From Sphingopyxis sp. (GTDB taxonomy: Bacteria; Pseudomonadota; Alphaproteobacteria; Sphingomonadales; Sphingomonadaceae), in the NCBI RefSeq assembly GCF_016463645.1, contig NZ_JAEMQX010000004.1, positions 1 to 64,000 of the forward strand: a DNA stretch of 64,000 nucleotides. The letters are read 5' to 3'. Under the pieces are notes generated by a model, which was not told the DNA's origin, did not search any database, and saw only the letters and a program-made list of their open reading frames with translations. Made by a program: the position numbers and the translations under genes. Shown here piece after piece: positions 834 through 7,055 of the stretch (positions are counted from its first letter, which is position 1; the number at the start of each line of letters is the position of its first letter).

Positions 834-1850
834 ATGAACATTCTTCTGACGGGCGGCGCGGGGTATATCGGCAGCCATGTCGCGGCGCCGCTGGTATCGG
901 CCGGCCACAATGTCGTGTGCTTCGACAATCTGTCGAACAGCGATCCTTCGGTCATGGAGCGGCTCGAAGCCATCACCGGCCGCGCCGTCCCGCTCGTCAC
1001 GGGCGATATCCGCGACGGCGACGCGCTGCGCCAGACAATCCGCGACCATGCGATCGAGGCCGTGATCCATTTCGCCGGCCTGAAAGCCGTCGGCGAATCG
1101 GTCGCCGAGCCGATGAAATATTACGACAACAATGTGCGTGGCACGCTGTCGCTGCTCGAAGCGATGGCCGATTGCGGTGCAAAGACGCTCGTCTTCTCGT
1201 CGAGCGCGACCGTCTATGGCCATCCGCAATATCTGCCGCTCGACGAAAATCACCCGACCTCGGCGACCAATCCCTATGGCCGCACCAAGCTGATGATCGA
1301 GGAAATGCTTGCCGACGTCGCCGCCGCCGACCCCGAATGGCGCATTGCGATCCTGCGCTATTTCAATCCCGTCGGCGCGCATGACAGCGGGCTGATCGGC
1401 GAGAATCCGAACGGCGTCCCGAACAATCTGATGCCCTTCATCAGCCGCGTTGCCGCAGGGCGGCTGGGTGAGCTGTCGGTGTTCGGCAACGATTACGACA
1501 CGCCCGACGGCACCGGCGTGCGCGACTATATCCATGTCGTCGATTTGGCCGACGGCCATGTCGCCGCGCTCGACGCGATTGCGAAAAGCGACCGGCCGCT
1601 GTCGACCTGGAACCTCGGCACCGGCCAGGGCTATTCGGTACTCGACATGCTCAAGGCCTTCGAGCGCGTGAACGGGGTCTCTATCCCCTATCGCATCGCC
1701 CCGCGCCGCGACGGCGACGTCGCGAGCTGCTTCGCCAGCCCCGAACTCGCCGCGAACGAGCTCGGCTGGACGGCCGAGCGCGATCTCGACGCCATGTGTT
1801 CGTCGAGCTGGCGCTTCGAACGCATGCTCGCGACGCGCAACGCCGACTAG
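834..1850 (+). CDS. galE: UDP-glucose 4-epimerase
   Basis: GalE interconverts UDP-glucose and UDP-galactose, feeding galactose into surface polysaccharides. The 338-residue length is standard. The NAD-binding motif TGGAGYIGSH lies at residues 6-15, the catalytic Ser is in SSSATVYG (122-129), and the Tyr/Lys pair is Y148 and K152 in YGRTK. The substrate-binding NPVGAHDSG segment follows at about residue 180. GGAGG lies upstream of the ATG. It is the only plus-strand gene among minus-strand neighbours, and its TAG stop overlaps the TAG stop of the convergent manganese exporter within the tetramer CTAG. It stands about 8 kb from the polysaccharide genes but probably supplies them. Confidence 0.93.
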   Translation: MNILLTGGAGYIGSHVAAPLVSAGHNVVCFDNLSNSDPSVMERLEAITGRAVPLVTGDIRDGDALRQTIRDHAIEAVIHFAGLKAVGESVAEPMKYYDNNVRGTLSLLEAMADCGAKTLVFSSSATVYGHPQYLPLDENHPTSATNPYGRTKLMIEEMLADVAAADPEWRIAILRYFNPVGAHDSGLIGENPNGVPNNLMPFISRVAAGRLGELSVFGNDYDTPDGTGVRDYIHVVDLADGHVAALDAIAKSDRPLSTWNLGTGQGYSVLDMLKAFERVNGVSIPYRIAPRRDGDVASCFASPELAANELGWTAERDLDAMCSSSWRFERMLATRNAD

Positions 1851-2419
1851 CCCAGCCAGCCTGCCGTCTGCACGAGCACCCACAGGCCGATCACGAAAAA
1901 CAGCCCCGCCGCGACGAGGCGTACCTTTGCGAGGTCGACCCGCTTGAGCAGCTCGTGACCAAGGAAGATCGCGGGCACATTGGCGATCATCATCCCGAGC
2001 GTCGTGCCCGCGGTGACCAGAAGAACATTATGATATTGCGCGCCGAGCGCGATCGTCGCGACCTGCGTCTTGTCGCCCATCTCGACGAGGAAGAAGGCGA
2101 CGAGCGTGGTCAGGAAGGCCCCGAACCGGGGCTTCGGCGCCTCATCGTCGTCGAACTTGTCGGGGATCAACGTCCACGCCGCCATCGCGATAAACGACGC
2201 GCCGATCACATAACGGAAGATGTCGCTGTCGAGAAACGCGGCCGCCGACGCACCGAGCAGCGCCGCGAGCGCATGATTGGCGAGCGTCGCGACCAATATG
2301 CCGAGAATGATCGGCATCGGCCGGTTGAAGCGCGTCGCGAGCAGGATCGCAAGCAACTGCGTCTTGTCGCCGATTTCGGCGAGCGCGACGACGGCGGTCG
2401 AGGTGAACAGGGCTTCCAT
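1847..2419 (-). CDS. UPF0016/TMEM165-GDT1 family manganese exporter
   Basis: This is an integral membrane cation exporter of 190 residues with the two signature repeats of the family, EIGDKTQ near residue 16 and EMGDKTQ in the second half, each followed by hydrophobic helices (six predicted in total). Bacterial members such as MneA export Mn2+, and several are controlled by the yybP-ykoY riboswitch; such an element lies directly upstream here (2496-2609), which strongly supports manganese as substrate. The start MEALFTSTAVVAL at 2419 fits the family; a longer frame to 2566 would run back through the riboswitch. GGAG lies 9 nt upstream of the ATG and may be masked by a hairpin (2429-2486). The gene is last in a tamA-tamB-lipoprotein operon. 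Confidence 0.9.
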   Translation of the reverse strand: MEALFTSTAVVALAEIGDKTQLLAILLATRFNRPMPIILGILVATLANHALAALLGASAAAFLDSDIFRYVIGASFIAMAAWTLIPDKFDDDEAPKPRFGAFLTTLVAFFLVEMGDKTQVATIALGAQYHNVLLVTAGTTLGMMIANVPAIFLGHELLKRVDLAKVRLVAAGLFFVIGLWVLVQTAGWLG

Positions 2420-2428
2420 TAATAGACT

Positions 2429-2486
2429 CCGGGGCCGGACGGCTTCGCGATACCAAGTGACATCGAACCCGCCGCCCGGCCCGGAC
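2429..2486 (-). promoter_or_regulatory. Possible expression platform: hairpin masking the exporter's ribosome binding site
   Basis: In the RNA, the arm CCGGGCCGG (2484-2476) can pair with CCGGCCCCGG (2438-2429) with one bulged C. The 3' arm includes the first two bases of the GGAG ribosome binding site (2430-2427) of the manganese exporter gene. It lies just 3' of the riboswitch aptamer, so manganese binding could expose the site by preventing this pairing. The complementarity is seen; the switch mechanism is inferred. Confidence 0.45.
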
Positions 2487-2495
2487 GTAGGTCGA

Positions 2496-2609
2496 CGCCA
2501 TTGGTCTCGCCCAAGCGGTATCCCGCTTCCACCGCGCCACGACCTCTCGGCCGAGTATGTTGACACGGTGGCCCGCCCCGAAGGACGGCTGGCTACTCCC
2601 CAGATGACG
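2496..2609 (-). promoter_or_regulatory. yybP-ykoY manganese riboswitch
   Basis: The minus-strand RNA carries both conserved loops of the class: GGGGAGTAG (2601-2593), whose GAGTA can pair with the TACTC in GTCAACATACTC, and GCGAGACC (2510-2503). Between them lie a hairpin closed by a UUCG tetraloop (CCGTCC/GGGCGG) and a perfect hairpin AAGCGG-GATA-CCGCTT. An outer helix forms between CGTCAT (2609-2604) and ATGGCG (2501-2496). Known members bind Mn2+ and switch on exporter genes, which fits the UPF0016 gene starting at 2419. The aptamer overlaps the end of the upstream lipoprotein gene: the GGGGAGTAG loop contains its last codons and stop. Confidence 0.92.
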
Positions 2610-2814
2610 GAGGCGCGTTAGACGGCCTGGCGTCCGGAGGCAAGCCCTCCGATGCCGACGCTGCTGCCCGGTCGGATTCAGCGATGTCGGCATCCATCGC
2701 CTTCGCGCGCGCCTCGATCTCCTTCGCCGCCTTCTCGTAGCGCTCCTCGAAGCGCGGCTCGTCCTTGCACGCCGCAAGCAGCAACAACGGCACGAGCAGG
2801 ATCGCAGCGCGCAT
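2593..2814 (-). CDS. Small predicted lipoprotein
   Basis: This 73-residue protein begins with a short hydrophobic signal and a lipobox LLAAC at about residues 12-16, so the mature protein would be lipidated at Cys. The rest is charged and predicted helical (EERYEKAAKEIEARAKAM), followed by a Pro/Ser-rich tail. I do not recognise a named family. The ATG at 2814 overlaps the tamB stop (TGATG), indicating translational coupling, so it may be an accessory of the TamAB complex. Its last codons TCT GGG GAG TAG form the invariant loop of the downstream manganese riboswitch, so translating ribosomes would pass over the aptamer's 5' side. Confidence 0.65.
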   Translation of the reverse strand: MRAAILLVPLLLLAACKDEPRFEERYEKAAKEIEARAKAMDADIAESDRAAASASEGLPPDARPSNAPPSSGE

Positions 2815-5800
2815 CAATAATCCTTGCGGTAACGGACGCTGAGATTCGATCCACCCGATCCGCCCGCCTGACTCAGCAGCGACAGCGCCGGGGTCAGGCT
2901 GATTTCGAGCTGGGTCGCGGTATAGCCGCGCGCGTCGGTTATCACCTCCAGATAGATATCCTTGGTGATATACTGCCCCGCCGCCAGCGCCGCGCCGCGC
3001 CCTACCGTGTCGTCGGGACCGAGTACGCGCAGCCGGTCGATCCCCGTCGCCGACTGGAGCGAGCCCAGCGGGCTCAGCCCCCCGCCCCCGCTGCTCAGCG
3101 TGTTGAGCGACGAGGCCAGCTGGACGGCCTGCAGCGGCGACAGCGTCGTGATCGAATCGCCGAACAGGATGCGCGAGACGATTTCATCCTGCGGCAGGCC
3201 GGGAACGCTCGAGAAGGCGATTTGCGGATTGCTCGCGCGACCGGTGACGCTGATACTGACCGTCACGGTCTCGATCGTATCGCTGGCCAGCAGGCGGATC
3301 GCCGGGTCGAAGGCTTCGCCGGTCGGGAAGGTCACCCTGCCCTCCTCGAGCTCGAACGAGCGACCCGCGAAACCCAGCGTCCCGCGCACCAGTTGGATCT
3401 CGCCGGTCACGCGCGGGTCCTGCGTCGTACCGCGCAGCACGACGTCGGCCTTCCATTCGGATTCGAGCCCCATCCCGCTGACATAGATTTCGTCAGGGGC
3501 CTTCAATGCGATATCGAGACGAATGAGGTCGAACAGGCTGCCGCCGACGGCCGCCAGCCCGTCGCCGCTGACGCGGGGGCGCCCTGCGGGAGGCTTGCGC
3601 CGCACGCCGGTGAGCACGGGAACCTGCGCCGCCCCCTCGCGCACGATGCGATAGCGTGTTTCGGGAAGGCGCAGGCTGCCCGACAGCAAGGCGGTCTGCC
3701 CCGCAACCTTTTCGAGCCGTAAATTGCCTGTCGCACGCGCCGCGATATTTTCGCTCCGCGCGAGCCGGGCATTGTCGAGCGTCGCGCTGATGTCCATCGG
3801 ATAGCCGTCGGCCGACGCGAGGCTGACATAACCCTTGGCCTGGATAGTGCCCTCACCGGCACTCGCCGTCAGCTGCTCGATCTCGAGCCGGTTGCCGGTG
3901 AAGCGGCCGTTGACGACCATGCCCGTCAGCCGCGTGCCGAACGCCTGATTCTCGTAGACCATGTCCTTGCCGCGCACGACGCCCTGCAGGCACGGATTCG
4001 AAACGCTGCAGCTGAAATCGGCGGCGACGGCGATCGGTCCCGTCACATGCTGGTCGGCGGGGCCGAAAAAGGAATAGAGCGTGTCGGCGGGGCCGTTGTA
4101 GCGGATGCCGCCGCCGAGCGGGGCCGCCATCAGCCGTTCGGTCCAGCCGCCCGCGCCGGCGCCGAGCGGACGGAGCGACGCCTGCAGCCGCCCGATCACG
4201 CTACCGCGCTTGCGCATCACCGCGCGCGCTTCGCCGCCGTCGGCGAGCAACTTTCCGGCGAAATTGACGTCGACCGGCTGGCTGACCGACGCCGCGGTGG
4301 TGCGCGTGAAGTCGGTGATCGTCAGCCGCGCGTCGGCGCGCGGAAAGCTCTCCGAATCCCTTTGCTCGAAATCGAGGCTGCCCGTCGCACGGCCGCCGAG
4401 CCCCATGTCGGGATAGACGGCGTTGAGGATCGCCATGTTGACGCGCTCGAGCCGGCTCTGGATCATGATCCCGTCGCCGAAACGTCCCGCGATGCGCGCG
4501 CTGCTGCCGCGGCCGAGGCTGACGTTGGTCGGCAGAAGCTCGTAACCGTCGGCACCCGGGATAATGCGCGCGGGCGAGGTGGTGCGGAAATTGATGCCGG
4601 TCGCGCGACCCTGCACCGACGCGCGCCACAGCTTGGGCTGGAGGTCGGCATTCGCCGCGATCCGGAAGGGTACGCCGCTGGTACCCTCAACCAGCGCCTG
4701 CGCGCGGCCCGCGCCGTCGCGATAGTCGATCTTCGCGCGCGCGACGGCGATGTCGAATTCGCGGATCTGCGTTTCGGCGATCTGGATGTCGGCGACGATA
4801 TGCGGCGTGTCGTAAAGCGTGACGTCGGCATCGACGATCGCCGAACCGATCGCGAGCTGCGCCGCTCCGGGCAATACGACGTCGTTCGCGCGGACGTTGA
4901 TCGCCGCCGCCTGATATTGCCCGGCCGCACTCAGCCGGACGAGACCGCCAAGCCCCTGCCCGGCGGCGTTGAGCTCGCCGACGAACGGCCCGGCGTCGCT
5001 CTTCACCAGCCGCCCGTTGAAGCCGATCCCCGACAGGTCGCCCCGCTCGACATCGATCGTCAGCGGGCCTTTGGCCGTGAGCAGCACGACATCGGCGGAT
5101 AGCGGCCCATAGTCGGTTTCGCCCGTCGCCGCGAGGCGGTAACCGTTCGGCGCGCCATTGATCCGCGCGACGAGATTGGCGAGCCCGATCCCGAGCCCCG
5201 GCCGGGCGGCGGTCACCACCGCGCGCGGGTCGCTGATCGTTCCCGCCAGCCGGACGCCGACCGGACCATAGTCGGTCGAATTGGCGCGCGCGGTCAGCCG
5301 GATCTGGCCGTTCGGGGCGTAGCTGCCCTCGCCGCCGGTCACGCGCAGACGCGGCGCCGACAGGCGCAGACCGGAAAAGCGGATGATGCCATCGGTGCCA
5401 TAGCGTACCGCGCTCGACGCCGTCGCGTTGCCGCCGAGGAAATCGCGGACCCCCGAATTGAACAGGCGGGTCGAGCGGGCGCGAACATTGCCGACGATCT
5501 CGAAGCCGCCGCGCGGCGCGGTCTTCAGGTCGGCATCGGTGTCGATATCGAAGATGCCGACGCTCTCGATACGATAATCGTTGATCCGCCCGTCGATCGC
5601 GCCCGTGTAGAATCCCTTGTTGAGGTCGGCGATGACGATCGCCTTCGCGTCGATCCGCGGCGAGCGCAGGCGCAGATTGTCGCTGAGGATACGGCCGTTG
5701 CTGTACGCGAGGTCGCCGTCGAGCCGCACCTGCGCCAGCGTCCCGCCCGCGACGGTATCGAGCCCGCGAATGCGCGCCGCGCGTCCGGCGACGGGGATCA

Positions 5801-7055
5801 CGATCTGGTCGGCATCTACCCGGGCCTTGCCGGCAAGAACGATCTGCTCGACGATGATATCGTTGACCGCGAGGCTGTTCGCATTCGCCTGATAGTCGAC
5901 CGTCGGCAAGGCGAAGGCGCCGTCGAGCGTCGCGGTGGCGCGCAGGCCGTTCGCACGCACCGCCGGCGCGATCGCGCCGGGGCGGAGGATATTGGCGGCA
6001 AGTTTCAGGCCTTCGTAGCGGTTGGTGCCGAGGTCGACCCCGCCGCTGATCCCGAGTTGCGCGGCGTCGGAAGACAGTCGCCCGTCGATCGCCGCCTTGC
6101 GCTTGTCGAGCCGCGCGGTCAGGTCGATCGTCGTTTCGTCGCCCAGCAGCTCGGCGGCCGGCCCATCGGCCAGCATGCGCGACGCTTGCGCCGCGCCCTT
6201 CGCGGTGAAAATGCCGTCACGCCCCGTCAGCGCGACACGCGCGAGCGGCGCCGCGCCGAGGTTCGCGGTCAGATCGCCGTTCCACGCCTTCCAGTCGCCC
6301 CGCCCGTCGAGCTTTGCGGTCAGCGTTTCCTCGAACCCGCCCATCGCCGCGAACACGCCGCCCTTCGGCGCGGCGAGGTCGAGCTTGACCGCGAGCCGGT
6401 TCGCCTCGGGCACCGCATCGAGCACCAGCTTGAGCGCATCGCCCTGGCCGCCGCCGCCCGCAATCGTTTCGGCATCGGCGGTCACCTGCGCGCGGCGATC
6501 GGCGATCGCGACCTTGCCGTTCAGTCGCGCGACCTGCCGCGTTCCGGCGACCGGTGGTTCGAAGATGAAGCGGTCGACGCGAACCAGTCCGACGTCGATG
6601 TCGATATCGGGGAGCAGCGGTTCGCCCGTATCGGGCACGGGTTTGAACTCGGGCAGCTTCCGCATCGTCATCGTCGCGGCAGTCGCCGAGCGGACATCGA
6701 CATGGTTCGCAAGATAACGGATCGGCCGCCAGTCGACCCTCACCTCGGGCGACGCAAGGAAAACGCCCTTGGGATCGGACAGCGTGAAATCGCGAATGAT
6801 CATCCGGCCGTAAAGCGACCCGTCGAGCCGGCCGATGCCGATCTTCATCCCGTTTTCAAATTCATATTTCTCGACCTGGGTGACGACGAAGCGCCGTCCC
6901 GCATCGCTGTTGAGACCGACGAGAAACAGCGCAAAGAGCAGAACGAGGCCAAGGAACGACAGGCCGACCCAGCGCAGGATCGTGAGCGGCCAGGACCGCG
7001 ACGTCTTCGCCGGCGCAGCACCGATGTCTTCGGCGAAGGGCGCCTCGTCCGCCAT
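2814..7055 (-). CDS. tamB: TamB family translocation and assembly module protein
   Basis: TamB is a very large inner-membrane-anchored periplasmic protein that works with TamA in outer membrane protein assembly and, in newer models, in phospholipid transport to the outer membrane. The 1,413-residue product has one N-terminal membrane helix (about residues 24-46, LTILRWVGLSFLGLVLLF), a long region of repeated short beta-strand units with AsmA-like character, and the C-terminal DUF490/TamB domain containing DPRVTGEIQLVRGTLGFAGR and ending with the family-typical ...LSVRYRKDY. It is longer than the roughly 1,260 residues of the E. coli protein. Its ATG overlaps the tamA stop (TGATG), placing it second in the operon. 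Confidence 0.9.
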   Translation of the reverse strand: MADEAPFAEDIGAAPAKTSRSWPLTILRWVGLSFLGLVLLFALFLVGLNSDAGRRFVVTQVEKYEFENGMKIGIGRLDGSLYGRMIIRDFTLSDPKGVFLASPEVRVDWRPIRYLANHVDVRSATAATMTMRKLPEFKPVPDTGEPLLPDIDIDVGLVRVDRFIFEPPVAGTRQVARLNGKVAIADRRAQVTADAETIAGGGGQGDALKLVLDAVPEANRLAVKLDLAAPKGGVFAAMGGFEETLTAKLDGRGDWKAWNGDLTANLGAAPLARVALTGRDGIFTAKGAAQASRMLADGPAAELLGDETTIDLTARLDKRKAAIDGRLSSDAAQLGISGGVDLGTNRYEGLKLAANILRPGAIAPAVRANGLRATATLDGAFALPTVDYQANANSLAVNDIIVEQIVLAGKARVDADQIVIPVAGRAARIRGLDTVAGGTLAQVRLDGDLAYSNGRILSDNLRLRSPRIDAKAIVIADLNKGFYTGAIDGRINDYRIESVGIFDIDTDADLKTAPRGGFEIVGNVRARSTRLFNSGVRDFLGGNATASSAVRYGTDGIIRFSGLRLSAPRLRVTGGEGSYAPNGQIRLTARANSTDYGPVGVRLAGTISDPRAVVTAARPGLGIGLANLVARINGAPNGYRLAATGETDYGPLSADVVLLTAKGPLTIDVERGDLSGIGFNGRLVKSDAGPFVGELNAAGQGLGGLVRLSAAGQYQAAAINVRANDVVLPGAAQLAIGSAIVDADVTLYDTPHIVADIQIAETQIREFDIAVARAKIDYRDGAGRAQALVEGTSGVPFRIAANADLQPKLWRASVQGRATGINFRTTSPARIIPGADGYELLPTNVSLGRGSSARIAGRFGDGIMIQSRLERVNMAILNAVYPDMGLGGRATGSLDFEQRDSESFPRADARLTITDFTRTTAASVSQPVDVNFAGKLLADGGEARAVMRKRGSVIGRLQASLRPLGAGAGGWTERLMAAPLGGGIRYNGPADTLYSFFGPADQHVTGPIAVAADFSCSVSNPCLQGVVRGKDMVYENQAFGTRLTGMVVNGRFTGNRLEIEQLTASAGEGTIQAKGYVSLASADGYPMDISATLDNARLARSENIAARATGNLRLEKVAGQTALLSGSLRLPETRYRIVREGAAQVPVLTGVRRKPPAGRPRVSGDGLAAVGGSLFDLIRLDIALKAPDEIYVSGMGLESEWKADVVLRGTTQDPRVTGEIQLVRGTLGFAGRSFELEEGRVTFPTGEAFDPAIRLLASDTIETVTVSISVTGRASNPQIAFSSVPGLPQDEIVSRILFGDSITTLSPLQAVQLASSLNTLSSGGGGLSPLGSLQSATGIDRLRVLGPDDTVGRGAALAAGQYITKDIYLEVITDARGYTATQLEISLTPALSLLSQAGGSGGSNLSVRYRKDY

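Follow-up and report, generated by a model that had tools for sequence, protein, structure and literature searches.

In the 64,000-nucleotide stretch of Sphingopyxis sp. DNA analysed here (the window), a Mn2+ aptamer lies in front of gdt1, and very probably belongs to a self-contained promoter–riboswitch–gdt1 cassette situated behind tamB and a small lipoprotein gene, with the tail of the lipoprotein gene reading into the cassette and borrowing the UAG of the aptamer as its stop codon. In the mechanism that we propose, a σ70-type promoter within the lipoprotein codons would start the gdt1 RNA at the first paired base of the aptamer; Mn2+ would bind the aptamer, and a platform able to mask the Shine-Dalgarno sequence would then regulate gdt1 at that site; and the lipoprotein tail would run through the promoter into the aptamer, whose invariant UAG would serve as its stop. 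The overlap itself would be passive sequence economy. Some 50 bases would carry three readings, namely codons, a promoter, and a riboswitch ligand loop whose UAG ends the preceding gene.

Layout of the locus

The gene order, on the minus strand, is tamB, lipoprotein gene, aptamer, gdt1, with the following features:

2814..7055, minus: tamB; open reading frame, PF04357 match (E 5.1e-58)
2816-2814, minus: tamB stop codon TGA, overlapping the ATG of the lipoprotein gene
2593..2814, minus: lipoprotein gene, 73 amino acids, lipobox LLAAC, end SSGE*; open reading frame from ATG at 2814 to TAG at 2595-2593
2638..2643, minus: predicted −35 element TTGCCT of the riboswitch promoter, its TTG read as Leu in the lipoprotein
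2615..2620, minus: predicted −10 element TAACGC, without T at −7; CTA at 2621-2619 invariant
2608, minus: predicted transcription start, the G of GTCAT, placed 7 nt after the −10 hexamer
2604..2608, minus: 5′ strand of P1, GTCAT, coding; pairs with ATGGC
2593..2601, minus: conserved loop L1, GGGGAGTAG; its TAG is the lipoprotein stop
2497..2608, minus: putative Mn2+ aptamer, P1 to P1, from the RF00080 match and P1 pairing
2497..2501, minus: 3′ strand of P1, ATGGC, which also belongs to helix A
2453..2504, minus: helix A, CCAATGGCGTCG (2504-2493) with CGATGTCACTTGG (2465-2453), from paired cells and double-sided changes
2433..2481, minus: helix B, GGCCGGGCGGC (2481-2471) with GCCGTCCGGCC (2443-2433), from paired cells and double-sided changes
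2427..2430, minus: gdt1 Shine-Dalgarno sequence GGAG, read from the sequence
1847..2419, minus: gdt1/UPF0016, putative Mn2+ exporter gene; PF01169 match (E 3.7e-42)

The 73-amino-acid lipoprotein had no Pfam match, and its NCBIfam matches were all below cut-off, the best being to an EexN lipoprotein (E 0.013).

The aptamer is a probable, borderline-scoring member of RF00080

RF00080 (yybP-ykoY, Mn2+) matches positions 2614-2437 of the minus strand over the full model with 44.7 bits (E 8.9e-11 with 601 bases searched, 1.6e-10 with the genome searched), and this is the sole RF00080 match in the genome at E ≤ 0.001. The Rfam gathering score for the family is 45, which places the window aptamer 0.3 bit below it. 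The covariance search that an earlier note on this DNA had proposed therefore came out two ways, with a match at the locus but none at the gathering cut-off; taken to the letter, the outcome that the note had named as refuting it, no RF00080 hit above threshold, did occur. Judged by its relatives, we take 44.7 bits for the borderline score of a true family member. That the match is instead decayed or fortuitous, and that there is no functional riboswitch here, draws on this shortfall in score and is hardly credible beside the remaining evidence: RF00080 is matched in 74 of 80 genus genomes, in 48 of them above the cut-off; loop L1 is invariant in all 62 loci where the lipoprotein gene overlaps the aptamer; P1 is paired almost throughout; the platform helices covary; and a GDT1 gene lies downstream of the aptamer at every one of the 75 genus loci (and at 169 of the 192 loci collected over all genera). 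The 75 genus loci come from the 74 matching genomes, and 27 of them score below the gathering cut-off. Annotation by gathering score misses some Sphingopyxis members, since RF00080 leaves P1 unpaired and scores them near the cut-off.

Both of the conserved aptamer loops, which we take to be those called L1 (GGGGAGUAG) and L3 (UCAACAUAC), are present in the window. Although P1 is not paired in the Rfam model, GTCAT and ATGGC pair in 342 of 344 cells across 69 aligned loci, against 0, 17, 39 and 60% when the register is slid by one or two columns. Among its standard pairs just one position differs between loci (T-G or T-A), with no double-sided change, and P1 accordingly shows little covariation. 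The alignment termed A2 comprises 44 of the 72 lipoprotein-bearing genus loci and 26 (25 used) of the 94 GDT1 loci from other genera; L054 was left out of its counts, and L108 was kept, shifted by some bases. The claim that a yybP-ykoY aptamer precedes a UPF0016 exporter gene is borne out by the RF00080 match together with the PF01169 gene downstream, and we infer that the aptamer would bind Mn2+ and that gdt1 expression would depend on it.

The lipoprotein stop codon lies within the invariant loop

The in-frame stop of the lipoprotein gene is the TAG of GGGGAGTAG (2601-2593). The earlier note had placed the conserved loop exactly where the gene ends with GGG GAG TAG, and coordinates and frame agree; its further statement that the 5′ side of the outer helix is coding also holds, with GTCAT (2608-2604) falling within CCG TCA TCT GGG GAG TAG. 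The arrangement recurs in the genus. At 62 of the 75 aptamer loci the lipoprotein stop is the aptamer UAG, and the protein ends in SSGE* every time, a frequency that makes the shared stop more than a chance event. The motif GGAGTAG is present in 191 of 192 loci, an invariance that is partly by construction, since the loci were anchored on it; L191, which lacks it, was left out of all motif counts. G099, a partial match, is not among the loci collected.

A lipoprotein homolog lies upstream at 72 of the 75 genus loci. In ten of these 72 the lipoprotein gene has a stop of its own before the −35 element, and promoter and aptamer are kept; seven of these stops lie 51-74 nt before GGAGTAG and the remaining three at 149, 320 and 1250 nt. 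The three loci without the lipoprotein (L003, L013 and L015), which are filed under the genus, have a divergent gdt1, and the source genome of L013 has 8% contamination and two loci.

A chance reading of a random open reading frame as the source of the overlap was ruled out by the lipobox, the conserved core and the presence of homologs behind tamB elsewhere. Open reading frames ending on the aptamer TAG also exist in other genera; ten were viewed and none was counted as a shared stop. Two of them (L056 and L180) had no Pfam match, and the other eight looked like GC-rich noise on visual inspection.

A predicted σ70-type promoter is conserved within the lipoprotein codons

In an ungapped alignment anchored on GGAGTAG, the loci carry TTG at −44 and NTA at −22, 22 nt from TTG to NTA. 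In the window the corresponding hexamers are TTGCCT (2643-2638) and TAACGC (2620-2615), 17 nt apart. A spacer of about 17 nt is that of an alphaproteobacterial σ70 promoter, and TTGCCT-17-TAACGC combines it with a −35 TTG and a −10 TA lacking T at −7. Both TTG and the missing T are described as alphaproteobacterial σ70 traits in the portion of PMC8407463 drawn on here, according to which more than 80% of σ70 promoters in Novosphingobium aromaticivorans are without T at −7. An E. coli-type promoter scan found no promoter at the locus, because such a scan accepts a −10 element only if its sixth base is T, and that T is absent here.

A rule set after seeing the alignment (TTG at −48 to −40, and TA 21-26 nt further) picked out all 62 overlapping loci, all 13 other genus loci and, in other genera, 89 of 94 loci with GDT1 and 13 of 22 without it (misses, 5 and 9, respectively). 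Moved 100-500 nt upstream, the rule found 0-2 loci per set, and shuffled sequences averaged 0.24-1.7 per set. A further 28 usable loci (L240 was left out) were collected from the rest of the class once the rule had been fixed; of these, 23 fit and 5 did not, compared with 6 of 196 control places. By sequence, then, a conserved alphaproteobacterial σ70-type promoter is located directly upstream of the aptamer and within the lipoprotein codons.

This promoter is presumably active, with transcription predicted to start from G2608, the first base of P1. The predicted start is 6 nt inside the RF00080 match (2614), and for the Mn riboswitch of Magnetospirillum gryphiswaldense Table 1 of PMC9549626, the part of that source used here, places the mapped start 5 nt in from the 5′ end of the Rfam match. 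A literature search returned no mapped Sphingopyxis start site with a riboswitch among the matches listed. Together these data suggest that alphaproteobacterial Mn riboswitches often carry a promoter at a fixed distance, with the RNA starting at P1.

Constraint on the DNA outweighs codon choice

The promoter elements are held constant where the protein leaves the codon free. At −23 the codon is NCT in all 62 overlapping loci, with T as the third base every time, although the residue is Ser in 41, Ala in 12, Thr in 7 and Pro in 2, and NCT makes up 122 of 3627 NCN codons (3.4%) in gdt1. The CTA of the −10 region is likewise invariant in 62/62 despite this variation in residue, and TTG at −44 is invariant in 62/62, compared with 9.0% TTG among the Leu codons of gdt1 in the same loci. 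In gdt1, 63 columns hold an unchanging residue that has degenerate codons, and in every one of them the third base varies. Among 29 nearest pairs there were no changes in TTG (0/87), in CTA (0/87) or in positions −9 to +8 (0/522), and 117 changes in 435 within the 15-nt promoter spacer. Comparison with gdt1 shows that, at the level of sequence, DNA constraint outweighs codon choice at the putative promoter.

The same pairs bear on whether the overlap was instead selected for the protein, that is, whether the SSGE tail or its frame is functional in the lipoprotein, which we regard as very unlikely. Third codon positions do change somewhat more often than first and second positions in the spacer (35, 31 and 51 changes at positions 1, 2 and 3, of 145 each) and in the stretch before the −35 element (41, 30 and 49, of 145 each). 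However, this contrast is weak beside that in gdt1 (241, 83 and 1161) and is absent after the −10 element (22, 8 and 12, of 87 each), a comparison that indicates weak protein constraint on the lipoprotein tail; moreover, relatives and the loci with their own stops have different tails.

Lipoprotein and cassette occur apart in other genera

Lipoprotein matches were found in 50 of 298 family genomes, and the best 20 of these 50 were fetched, 5 from the genus and 15 from other genera. At all 15 inspected loci of other genera, tamB lies directly upstream of the lipoprotein homolog, and neither GGGGAGTAG nor a gdt1 match was found within ~1.5 kb. Conversely, in other genera the ~1.5 kb upstream of the aptamer lacked the lipoprotein at all 117 loci, and the cassette there is placed behind different upstream genes.

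On a gdt1 tree, parsimony requires 6 changes for the overlap state and 5 for the own-stop state, of which at least 3 for each state are forced by well-supported branches; the tree was taken as unrooted for these counts, 28 of its 78 inner branches lack resolution, and one of the own-stop rows, L077, sits on a long branch. The overlap is probably old in the genus, with one probable origin and several losses.

As a separate observation, a small lipoprotein encoded behind tamB (15 of 15 inspected, L198-L212) is a candidate TAM partner; the copy in the window has no Pfam match.

The expression platform fits a translational switch

Helix A, which competes with P1 for ATGGC, is paired in 256 of 276 cells in its outer part (6-50% when slid) and in 458 of 482 cells, with 29 double-sided changes, in its inner part (29-38% when slid). 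Helix B is paired in 720 of 759 cells with 22 double-sided changes (28-55% when slid), and its end adjoins the gdt1 Shine-Dalgarno sequence. This arrangement of P1, helix A and helix B fits a translational switch. The platform (2504-2427 in the window, and its homologs) is conserved across the family.

If P1 blocks helix A, helix B is left free and would mask the Shine-Dalgarno sequence, so that gdt1 would be OFF with Mn2+. The topology of the platform seems to point in this direction, contrary to what is expected for an exporter; in E. coli the mntP riboswitch is ON with Mn2+, according to the section of PMC11647493 consulted. Nested folding of 135 of the 169 GDT1 loci gave a mean unpaired value for the Shine-Dalgarno sequence of 0.15 with P1 enforced and 0.22 with the 5′ strand of P1 masked; masking left the site the more accessible in 46 loci, and enforcing P1 did so in 14. 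For the genus only (72 loci) the values were 0.15 enforced and 0.17 masked, with 11 loci each way. These models give no switch direction; if anything, the counts would lean against an ON switch.

Translational coupling or a self-contained cassette

With a promoter of its own at the 5′ end of the aptamer, the predicted main gdt1 RNA does not contain the lipoprotein start, and lipoprotein translation would therefore not touch it. The earlier note had regarded this riboswitch as unusual in that riboswitches usually sit in non-coding leaders; the sharing of codons is real, but the RNA predicted from the internal promoter has a largely non-coding leader. The overlap looks like thrifty reuse of DNA, not a new control mechanism.

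The note had further proposed that ribosomes finishing the lipoprotein would cover and unfold the aptamer, so that translating the upstream gene could reset or blind the sensor; taken as a coupling of tamAB-lipoprotein translation to the Mn2+ sensor, through ribosomes on L1 and P1, that is maintained by selection, this is unlikely. It would account for the keeping of the shared stop in 62 of 72 lipoprotein-bearing loci, and for a tail that keeps one frame in those 62 despite lengths of 29-59 codons after an AMD-like core (present in 61 of 62). As the main mechanism, however, it is not supported, in view of the predicted promoter within the lipoprotein gene, the ten non-overlapping loci that keep the cassette after at least three separate changes, and the cassettes of other genera, where the lipoprotein accompanies 0 of 117 loci. 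Because those ten loci retain the cassette, a terminating ribosome over L1 is not needed for its retention.

Coupling requires an RNA that holds both the lipoprotein start and the aptamer, and it could act only on a tamAB read-through RNA. A simple scan from the lipoprotein gene to gdt1 found no intrinsic terminator, so such an RNA may exist, a point in favour of coupling. A ribosome terminating on it should, from the size of its footprint, cover L1. That ribosomes ending at the aptamer UAG would hold the Mn2+ sensor open on this RNA is a conjecture to which we give little credence. Were it true, expression of TAM, and hence envelope assembly, would be linked to Mn2+ export, and ribosomes would read the RNA element on one transcript, whereas it could fold freely on another that starts inside the first. 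With the overlap conserved at 62 loci and ten natural non-overlapping controls, the locus is well suited to studying how the ends of proteins are moulded by regulatory DNA, and whether an aptamer is disturbed by ribosomes that terminate on it.

Comparison with known systems

The yybP-ykoY riboswitch of E. coli mntP, as described in the section of PMC11647493 consulted, likewise has the aptamer core sequence, a Mn exporter gene downstream and platform pairing beside the Shine-Dalgarno sequence, but in Sphingopyxis the 5′ part of the aptamer lies inside the upstream gene, which uses the aptamer UAG as its stop. The M. gryphiswaldense Mn riboswitch, compared by description, is likewise alphaproteobacterial and has a start at nearly the same place (5 nt inside the match, compared with the 6 nt predicted here), and the portion of PMC9549626 used mentions no overlap with an upstream gene. 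No earlier report of such an overlap appeared among the matches listed in an open-access literature search, a scope in which absence is weak evidence; the parts of PMC7266159, PMC7566282 and PMC7471390 that we drew on contain nothing on it.

Cassettes of other Sphingomonadaceae share the putative TTG-22-NTA promoter, the aptamer and gdt1 (89 of 94 by the promoter rule), but differ from those of Sphingopyxis in their upstream genes and sometimes in using a TGA within the −35 box as the upstream stop. Such a TGA (in TTGAC or TTGAT) ends the upstream gene in L041, L048, L106 and L156. By Pfam, these genes encode a ferritin-like protein in L041, a PEP carboxylase in L106 and a siroheme-synthase-like protein (NAD_binding_7) in L156; the upstream gene of L048 is, by eye, similar to that of L041.
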